DNA of 32,660 nucleotides. It comes from Parcubacteria group bacterium GW2011_GWF2_45_11 (GTDB lineage Bacteria; Patescibacteriota; Patescibacteriia; UBA1558; UBA10009). A program made the translations under genes and the position numbers. The notes beneath the pieces are model-generated. The model saw only the letters and a list, made by a program, of their open reading frames with translations, had not been told where the DNA came from and did not search any database. Shown one piece after another: positions 2,745-21,909 of the stretch; positions within the stretch are counted from its first letter, which is position 1; each line of letters starts with the position of its first letter. Where the stretch lies: NCBI GenBank assembly GCA_001001205.1, contig LCKE01000014.1, positions 1-32,660 of the forward strand, written 5' to 3'.

Positions 2745-4583
<1,839 letters not shown>

Positions 4584-8066: not shown

Positions 8067-8597
8067 ATGCTTAAAAATTATCACAAATTGCTCAGTAAAC
8101 TGAATAAAAATCTCAATAGATTTGGGCCTTTTTTTATGCTGATTTTTATGCTGAATTTATCGTTCCCCCACGTTGCCGTCGGGCAAACCGTTGCATTTGG
8201 CGCCCAGCTACCTATTGATGCCGGCAAAATTGAAATTCTCAAAAAAATGCCACAAACGCCTGGTTTCCCGGAGGTCAATATTAAAGAGCCGAGATGGACG
8301 GTCAATATCTGGGTAACGGCCTACAACAGCCACCCCGCGCAGACCGACGCCACTCCCTGTATTACCGCTTCCGGCTTGAATGTCTGCGAAAGAAATACCG
8401 AAGACATTCTGGCCACTAATTTCAGATATTTACCCTTTGGCACTAAAGTCAGACTGCCACAAATTTCCGGCAACAAAATTTACACCATTGAAGACCGCAT
8501 GAATACAAGATACGGGCAAACCGTTGATATTTGGATGAAAGATTATGATCAGGCCCGGCAGTTTGGCCGCCAATATACCATTATGGAAATTCTATAA
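8067..8597 (+). CDS. Exported 3D (Asp-Asp-Asp)-domain protein
   Basis: Hydrophobic N-terminal segment; WVTAYNS...TPCITASG...ATNFRYLPFGTKVRLP...YTIEDRMNTRYGQTVDIWM matches the 3D-domain pattern. Confidence 0.8.
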   Translation: MLKNYHKLLSKLNKNLNRFGPFFMLIFMLNLSFPHVAVGQTVAFGAQLPIDAGKIEILKKMPQTPGFPEVNIKEPRWTVNIWVTAYNSHPAQTDATPCITASGLNVCERNTEDILATNFRYLPFGTKVRLPQISGNKIYTIEDRMNTRYGQTVDIWMKDYDQARQFGRQYTIMEIL

Positions 8598-8605
8598 CTT
8601 AGACC

Positions 8606-8640
8606 AAAAACAGCCGTGGCTTAAAAACGGCTGTTTTTTA
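8606..8640 (+). terminator. Intrinsic terminator
   Basis: aaacagccg-tggcttaaaaa-cggctgttttttta-type hairpin. Confidence 0.85.
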
Positions 8641-8705
8641 TTTATAAAAAGCAAGTGGTAATCGCCGCCGGTAGCACAACGCGGCTAAATTTAAATATAC
8701 TTTTC

Positions 8706-8780
8706 TGGAGGCCAGGATGGGAATCGAACCCACGAATAAGGGTTTTGCAGACCCTCGCCTTACCACTTGGCTACCTGGCC
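8706..8780 (-). tRNA. tRNA-Cys (GCA), CCA encoded
   Basis: Minus strand ggccaggtagccaagtggtaaggcgagggtctgcaaaaccc...gggttcgattcccatcctggcctcca; anticodon loop ctgcaaa. Confidence 0.95.
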
Positions 8781-9057
8781 AAAAATTAACCTGACTTTTA
8801 TCTGATTGCTTTTTATTAAAATAAACGGCTCCCCGCCTCGCCGCTTACCTGTTGCTGGAACAGACATGGGTTCAGCCATAGGCAGGCTATAACTTGGGGA
8901 AACTCCATTGAATATAACAAAATGGCCCTTAAAAATCAACCGGCTTCATGGCTAAAACGTAAGAAACGGGTAAAACTTTATATTTTATCTTTTTAATATG
9001 CAAAAACTACCCGCTTTTTTCCTTGAATAAAAAAGTGGTGCGGGGTAAAATGGTCTC

Positions 9058-9552
9058 ATGAAACAAGCCTTACTGGTAGTTGACGTGCAAAACTACTTCA
9101 TCAATAAAAACACCCAGCATGTGCCGGGCAACATCAAAAAGCTGATTGAAGAAAACCGCTGGCCGGTTATTGTCTTTAGCCGGTTTATCAACTCGCCCGA
9201 CAGCCAGTTTGTCAAACAACTTGAATTCAGCGGCTGTATGCGGCCGCCCTATTCGGAAATCGTGGACGACCTAAAGCCCTGGGTTAAAAAGGACAATATT
9301 TTCAGCAAATGTTCTTTTTCGGTTTTTACCAACCCCGACTTTAAAAGGTACTTAAAGGAAAACAAAATAGACGAGCTGGTCATCTGCGGACTGGATACCG
9401 ATTATTGCGTGCTGGCTGATGCTTTTAACGCCTTTGACCAGGGTTATAAAGTTTCCGTGGTCGCTGATTGCTCGGGTAGCTTTATTTCTGGCAATACAGG
9501 ACACTTAGCCGCTTTGGATATAATTAGAAAAAGTTTAGGAAAGATAATCTAA
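9058..9552 (+). CDS. Isochorismatase-family (cysteine hydrolase) protein
   Basis: ALLVVDVQNYF..., ICGLDTDYCVLADAFNAFDQGYKVSVVADCSGS. Confidence 0.88.
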   Translation: MKQALLVVDVQNYFINKNTQHVPGNIKKLIEENRWPVIVFSRFINSPDSQFVKQLEFSGCMRPPYSEIVDDLKPWVKKDNIFSKCSFSVFTNPDFKRYLKENKIDELVICGLDTDYCVLADAFNAFDQGYKVSVVADCSGSFISGNTGHLAALDIIRKSLGKII

Positions 9553-21194: not shown

Positions 21195-21223
21195 TTGACA
21201 AAATAAACATTTCGGGCTATAAT
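21195..21223 (+). promoter_or_regulatory. Perfect consensus promoter TTGACA-17-TATAAT
   Basis: TTGACA 21195-21200, 17-nt spacer, TATAAT 21218-21223. Confidence 0.9.
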
Positions 21224-21227
21224 TGAA

Positions 21228-21241
21228 TGTTTACGTAAACA
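21228..21241. promoter_or_regulatory. 14-bp perfect palindrome TGTTTACGTAAACA at the predicted transcription start
   Basis: Direct reading; located 5-18 nt after the -10 box. Confidence 0.75.
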
Positions 21242-21268
21242 ATAACTCAAAACTCAAGGAGATTTCCC

Positions 21269-21862
21269 GTGAGACGACTCCGACTCATGGTTGTCGCGCT
21301 CGTGCTGATGATAAGCACGGCGCTGGCTGACCAGTACCAGCCGCCCCACCAGGCGGTGGTGGACTCGTTAGGTAACCATCTGGTTACCTATGAGTGGGTC
21401 AAATTTTCTTTCGATGACCAGTTCCACCACCCCAACGGTGATCTGTACCCCAAAAAATGGGGTGAGACAGTCTGGGTCTTGGCCCAGCCGCGCCAGGCCA
21501 ACCGCTTCCGCGGCTGGATGACCATCGGCGGTTTTGCCGCCGGTGCGGTTGATGGCTATAACCAGGGATATCTCCAGCACGGCTGGAGAACCTGGGACGA
21601 AGTGGAGCGGTTCGCCTGGATAGCCGGCGCCCCGATGTTTTGGGGCTTGGCGCTGGATAGTCAGTATCCAGACGCCTGCCGCTGGACCGGCGGACTCCAG
21701 GGCGGGTTGGCCGCTGTTTCCATTATCCGACATTCGGATAATGACGACGGCCAGACAATCGCTTTGGCAGCCGGAGCCGCGGCCGGCTCTTATATTGTGG
21801 GCTGGCTGTTGGATAAGTACCGCCACCGGCCGGCCAAGGGCTACCGGTACTATCTCAGGTAG
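21269..21862 (+). CDS. Small exported protein of unknown function; CDS tiled with perfect inverted repeats
   Basis: GTG start after aaggag (21256-), signal peptide MRRLRLMVVALVLMISTALA, own promoter and terminator. Confidence 0.8.
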   Translation: MRRLRLMVVALVLMISTALADQYQPPHQAVVDSLGNHLVTYEWVKFSFDDQFHHPNGDLYPKKWGETVWVLAQPRQANRFRGWMTIGGFAAGAVDGYNQGYLQHGWRTWDEVERFAWIAGAPMFWGLALDSQYPDACRWTGGLQGGLAAVSIIRHSDNDDGQTIALAAGAAAGSYIVGWLLDKYRHRPAKGYRYYLR

Positions 21863-21871
21863 CCTTCATCT

Positions 21872-21909
21872 CCCCCGTCAAGGCTTAGGCTTTGACGGGG
21901 GCGTTTTTT
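21872..21909 (+). terminator. Intrinsic terminator CCCCCGTCAA...TTGACGGGGG-cgtttttt
   Basis: 10-bp stem plus T-tract. Confidence 0.93.

Follow-up and report, generated by a model that had tools for sequence, protein, structure and literature searches.

A small class of orphan genes with strongly folded coding sequences in a Parcubacteria group bacterium

Introduction

Why should a protein-coding gene be filled with inverted repeats along nearly its entire length, and does such a gene stand alone in its genome? The question is raised by a locus of Parcubacteria group bacterium GW2011_GWF2_45_11, lying in a 32,660-nt stretch of DNA that was analysed as a whole and is called the window below. 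A sequence-only reading had described there a gene for an exported protein, tiled with perfect hairpins, and had proposed that its transcript is a highly structured or dual-function RNA, or that the protein evolves under an RNA-structure constraint. As a rule, selection acting on mRNA folding shows up as a weak statistical trend, and reduced, intracellular genomes show it less still. A discrete class of chromosomal genes that matched an RNA phage in folding, mostly with a common promoter and leader design, would offer a natural test of how whole-message folding bears on mRNA life, translation or mutation, and would help to approach the many orphan genes that Patescibacteria carry.

The Gene and the Folding of Its Transcript

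The gene is chromosomal and lies between ribF-truB and uvrB, with a DNA promoter in front. Equipped with this promoter, a Shine-Dalgarno sequence, a GTG start and a terminator (Table 1), ORF 21269-21862 looks like a genuine gene. It is taken as protein coding because a homolog exists in the sister genome G003, located between a ribF-truB fusion and uvrB, whose protein is 39% identical over the alignment and shares the motif FHHPNG..YP. The 197-aa product carries a signal or anchor segment at the N-terminus, with hydrophobic segments after it. The sequence-only reading recognised no RNA class or protein family here, and our searches agree: Pfam, PHROGs, NCBIfam and PDB gave no match above cut-off for the protein, and no Rfam family matched the gene. 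The AlphaFold model of the protein (mean pLDDT 43) was not usable.

All 16 inverted repeats listed in that reading are exact. Perfect hairpins with a stem of at least 6 and a loop of 3-20 number 12, compared with 3.7 ± 1.6 (maximum 10) in 200 synonymous-codon shuffles; for stems of at least 8 the count is 4 versus 0.44, and for those of at least 9 it is 3 versus 0.10. When protein and codon counts are held fixed, the MFE of the coding sequence is -307.7 kcal/mol against -248.9 ± 7.9 (z -7.4), and under a strict null that also fixes junction dinucleotides the energy is 52 kcal/mol lower than the null predicts (z -6.4). The remaining coding sequences of the window, taken in pieces of up to 600 nt, range from +1.5 to -3.4, leaving the gene as the window's outlier and bearing out both the contrast drawn with ordinary neighbours and the notion of a highly structured RNA.

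The picture of a near-continuous series of hairpins holds with a small correction. The stems exist, but just 10 of the 16 tested hairpins (the terminator among them) are present in the transcript MFE, 9 of them complete, while the CCACC, CTGGG, CCAGCCGCG, CTGGATA, CTGGA and GAGCCG stems compete with longer helices. With 70% of bases paired and 66% of pairs spanning at most 50 nt, the predicted transcript would be a branched structure, slightly idealised when described as separate hairpins. The start of the gene is predicted to be unpaired at 0.51, as against 0.31 at +20 to +60, an accessibility similar to that of the genome's other genes.

Table 1. Parts of the 21269-21862 gene, other members of the class with their strict-null z, and copies of a shared leader element
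Feature	Sequence	Position	Strand	Remark
Sigma-70-type promoter, TTGACA-17-TATAAT	window	21195-21223	+	12/12 consensus matches
Leader palindrome TGTTTACGTAAACA	window	21228-21241	+	
Shine-Dalgarno AAGGAG	window	21256-21261	+	
CDS, 197 aa, GTG start, 594 nt	window	21269-21862	+	GC 60% vs 44% in the window
9-bp hairpin TAGGTAACC-ATCT-GGTTACCTA	window	21369-21390	+	8/9 pairs in MFE
6-bp hairpin ACCCCA-AAAAA-TGGGGT	window	21447-21463	+	in MFE
6-bp hairpin CGGCGG-TTTTG-CCGCCG	window	21526-21542	+	in MFE
8-bp hairpin TCTCCAGC/GCTGGAGA, enclosed by CCAGG/CCTGG	window	21562-21595	+	both in MFE
7-bp hairpin GCCCCGA/TTGGGGC, one G.U	window	21629-21646	+	in MFE
10-bp hairpin CATTATCCGA-CAT-TCGGATAATG	window	21721-21743	+	in MFE
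Intrinsic terminator, 13-pair stem and T run	window	21872-21909	+	also placed at 21872-21901
Class member	L042	14757-15209		z -8.0
Class member	L042	14378-14686		z -3.4
Class member	L055	10291-11733		z -10.0 (first 600 nt)
Class member	L055	11730-12449		z -11.5 (first 600 nt)
Class member	L069	364-906		z -7.0
Class member	L021	15112-15417		z -4.5
Class member	L015	2783-3325		z -6.7
Class member	L024	7308-8681		z -3.9
Leader element AGTCTCCTTAACCAGAGCAAGGTTAGGCA	L042	14712-14740	+	part of possible leader hairpin
Leader element AGTCTCCTTAACCAGAGCAAGGTTAGGCA	L042	17632-17660	-	part of possible leader hairpin

A Class of Folded Genes in the Genome

Two scans covered 94% of the assembly, comprising 932 ORFs from a simple ORF caller. 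When 400-nt windows were regressed on dinucleotide content, the 21269 locus was among the strongest outliers. Synonymous shuffling of each coding sequence (segments up to 270 nt, 8 shuffles, pooled sd) gave a mean z of -0.67 (sd 1.28); ten ORFs fell at or below -5.0, an eleventh reached -4.9, and the value after that was -3.9. Two of the outliers were set aside, namely L051:16119, which owes its position to CAACACGTAGAGACGCAA units repeated in both direct and inverted orientation, and L042:16777, whose frame was probably called wrongly. Nine ORFs remain, 21269-21862 included. Strict-null z values of the members (24-100 strict shuffles, at most 600 nt each) are given in Table 1; some are weaker under this null, at -3.4 to -4.5. 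Membership of such a class lay beyond what could be seen from one locus, and the original observation is confirmed as real and understated.

Some neighbouring observations deserve a mention. The ORF at L051:16119-16787 is transposase-like by look. L056:8150 was an outlier in the scan of 400-nt pieces and ordinary in the coding-sequence test, and was not retained; this GC-rich ORF (8150-9406) has a C-terminal segment that appears to resemble type IX secretion cargo sorting domains. The strongest excess folding, beyond that of MS2 phage, is found in the two-gene unit L055:10291-12449, which adjoins dnaJ.

Class genes are richer in GC at all three codon positions (0.59/0.43/0.66 versus 0.50/0.36/0.52 in the genome). 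GC content was nevertheless ruled out as the cause, because the six GC-rich genes used as controls, all from this genome, are ordinary, with strict z from +0.1 to -1.4. Overall, there is a discrete chromosomal class of about nine orphan genes whose synonymous codons are arranged for whole-mRNA folding, and to our knowledge no such discrete class is known in bacterial chromosomes.

A close likeness is offered by MS2 (Fiersviridae), which in the same kind of test gave z -7.3 for mat and -6.3 for coat, and which shares with the class an excess of folding, equal in magnitude, along whole coding sequences, about 70% pairing and short helices. Unlike MS2, the class genes are dispersed in a bacterial chromosome and have DNA promoters and terminators; the 21269 locus, chromosomal, led by a DNA promoter and with no viral protein or relative found, is not an RNA-virus genome. 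The likeness might still be thought to betray foreign, higher-GC DNA, be it phage morons or domesticated RNA-virus-like sequence, that carried its structure from the donor. The GC raised at every codon position, the MS2-like z, the possession of an own promoter and terminator, and a weak match of the L021 protein to a PHROG moron membrane protein (E 0.0014) are all in line with such an origin. However, ordinary GC-rich genes of the genome lack the excess, three loci are found at matching chromosomal positions in sister genera, and the three class proteins searched against viral contigs had no relative there, which makes an origin of this kind unlikely. A link to a retroelement was also considered and dropped: one reverse transcriptase was seen, on another contig (C57), unlinked to the class.

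Among cellular genes, structural selection on synonymous codons has been reported for 2-3% of coding sequences on average (PMC6544989), with folding effects weaker in intracellular species (PMC7063772). In these published cases, as in the class, the arrangement of synonymous codons raises folding while the protein is fixed. They form a tail or an average shift, whereas here we see a discrete set, with z of about -3.4 to -11.5, in a reduced genome, and folding that goes mostly with a single arrangement of promoter and leader.

Promoters, Leaders and Start Regions

Class transcription units are mono- or bicistronic and lie between other genes. Their promoter and leader features were described only after the class had been seen: six units are preceded by a promoter in which TTGACA or TTGACT is followed by a 17-nt spacer (for most members of the form TTGACA-17-TANNNT), and near the start of L069 no clear promoter of the TTGACA kind is seen. 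Leaders are short and often A/C-rich; CGTAA, a post hoc observation, is present in five of them and does not serve as a general marker. A hairpin followed by a T run is visible 3' of most class genes. As a general marker, ACGTAAAC in the leader behind a TTGACA promoter was tried and rejected: 53 genomes gave only one further match, and the motif is specific to the lineage at most. On contig C27, two class-like genes carry the same 29-nt leader element, AGTCTCCTTAACCAGAGCAAGGTTAGGCA (Table 1).

The encoded proteins have no relation to one another, and family matches are missing for almost all of them; the L024 protein has a weak DUF2279-like domain. Signal or membrane segments can be discerned by eye in many of them, and the proteins are often predicted to be exported. 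Start regions are unpaired at 0.54 versus 0.50 elsewhere, and the codons just downstream at 0.34 versus 0.51 (p 2e-6 for the contrast). With the start open and the adjoining codons closed, the class messages therefore look made for translation.

E. coli lpp and ompA are single-gene transcripts with a strong promoter, an intrinsic terminator and exported products, and in this design they resemble the class; unlike class genes, their coding regions have no excess folding (z -0.9 and +0.3). Since these stable transcripts do without it, such folding is no general requirement for stability. The minimum among 131 E. coli ORFs was -4.4 (ompF -0.4), and high expression in general was rejected as the cause, the E. 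coli ribosomal operon, ompA and lpp being ordinary.

Consensus promoters before most class genes also invite the idea that what is selected is the folding of nascent RNA, acting against R-loops and transcription-associated mutation at very strong promoters, rather than the stability of the finished mRNA. One report, in which nascent RNA folding is described as antimutagenic in yeast (PMC10511511), speaks for it. Yet conserved genes with a promoter score of at least 10.5 (n = 47) have a mean z of -0.69, without excess, and excess is likewise missing in the E. coli ribosomal protein genes and ompA; we assign this idea a low probability.

The Probable Target of Selection

The 21269 gene taken alone does not discriminate between sense and antisense, both being extreme (antisense z -7.0). 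An A.C mismatch on the sense strand is a G.U pair on the opposite one. When the class was pooled with relaxed flanks, G.U inside local stems numbered 51 versus 28.6 in the null, and A.C mismatches 24 versus 21.6 (p 0.06 for the G.U:A.C ratio against its null); stricter flanks gave 26 G.U and 8 A.C. The sense MFE is below the antisense MFE in 9 of 9 class genes. Because G.U is in excess without A.C, and the sense strand folds more strongly, selection on the sense RNA is favoured, while the same G.U excess makes it less likely that selection acts on a DNA cruciform or on an antisense product. Together with a z far beyond other coding sequences, this class-wide asymmetry supports the earlier claim that the protein evolves under an RNA-structure constraint.

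It might be supposed instead that mutation left the inverted repeats behind as a by-product, through template switching at quasi-palindromes in fast-evolving genes whose proteins are weakly constrained. Many stems are indeed perfect Watson-Crick helices with short loops, class proteins evolve fast, and antisense folding is extreme in L042 as well as in the 21269 gene. But G.U alone is in excess inside the stems, where unselected decay would raise G.U and A.C equally; the start region remains open; and the trait clusters in genes of one promoter architecture, although mutation should strike other orphans too. A purely mutational origin thus appears improbable.

Homologs in Sister Genera

G003 is the one sister genome, nearly complete, across which the class was compared; homologs are few, with positional ones for three loci. 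The G003 counterpart of the 21269 gene has a strict z of -3.0 (its central 270 nt alone, -0.3) and a GC of 45% versus about 33% in its neighbours. In the same genome the L055 pair has a counterpart flanked by dnaJ and a CorA-like gene, with z of -2.4/-1.5 and -4.6 and a GC of 41-43% versus 31% for the genome; homology rests mainly on position here, because the smaller proteins have no detectable similarity and the larger ones only a collinear 23% identity (E 0.009). The homolog of L024 in another sister genome, G004, stands beside the same flippase-like gene, with z of -3.2 strict and -4.1 simple and a GC of 54.5%. GC is raised in all three positional homologs, and TTGACA promoters are retained in those of L055 and L024. 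The homologs point to a persistence of excess folding in sister genera in a weaker form (about -2 to -4.6), individual stems not being retained. No gene of G003 reaches -5; the extreme folding is therefore particular to the GW2011_GWF2_45_11 genome, with a milder form in the family.

With one homolog compared per gene, the 21269 pairs projected on the G003 homolog are canonical in 49.5% of cases versus 33-44% when slid, and the L024 pairs projected on the G004 homolog do no better than slid ones. The helices are not retained, which goes against compensatory change at the stems and against the dual-function RNA of the sequence-only reading, the syntenic homolog having kept a protein motif and not the stems. 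Extreme structure and a leader motif common to several members would suit a transcript that is itself a functional RNA; but homologs lack conserved pairs, Rfam offers no family, and members share no sequence, and this possibility strikes us as very unlikely. It seems to be the amount of folding, and not one conserved RNA shape, that is under selection.

Many orphan genes with TTGACA promoters and a GC of 40-48% (genome 31%) were seen in G003 at L090, L115, L117, L131 and L134. Orphans with strong promoters in this genome have raised GC (p 0.0002), and their z is somewhat lower, in a comparison biased by the picking of some from a low-z list.

A Possible Role of the Folding

Such evidence leads us to prefer, tentatively and at a little under even probability, a reading in which the class is a small, family-level set of strongly promoted accessory genes whose sense mRNA is selected for overall pairing, with the ribosome site left open, for the sake of transcript durability. 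Action at the level of sense RNA and persistence in sister genera are both indicated, and the interpretation offered from the single gene is partly supported. Selection would favour many base pairs overall in the sense mRNA, particular stems not being preserved. The folded body would make the transcript nuclease-resistant and long-lived, and a slow-growing minimal cell might obtain much protein, often exported, from few transcripts. Such protection may be likened to that attributed to ordered structure in RNA-virus genomes. Paired RNA resists single-strand-specific nucleases, and helices below 12 bp tend to escape RNase III; as most helices of the class are shorter than 12 bp, they would tend to be spared by it. 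Nuclease resistance is plausible for the modelled 21269 transcript, and transcript durability is, we infer, the most economical function.

It is tempting to go further and to suppose a regulon-like set of hyper-folded mRNAs in which folding itself is a function, for example one that lets messages be stored for long or carried, perhaps inside vesicles or in cells that are dormant or attached to a host, so that the bacterium would apply an RNA-virus-like strategy to its own genes. Taken as a whole, this extended reading is quite unlikely.

Finally, another structured RNA of the window lies inside its 16S rRNA gene (2745-4583), where a group I intron occupies positions 3292-3583 (Rfam RF00028, 53.5 bits).
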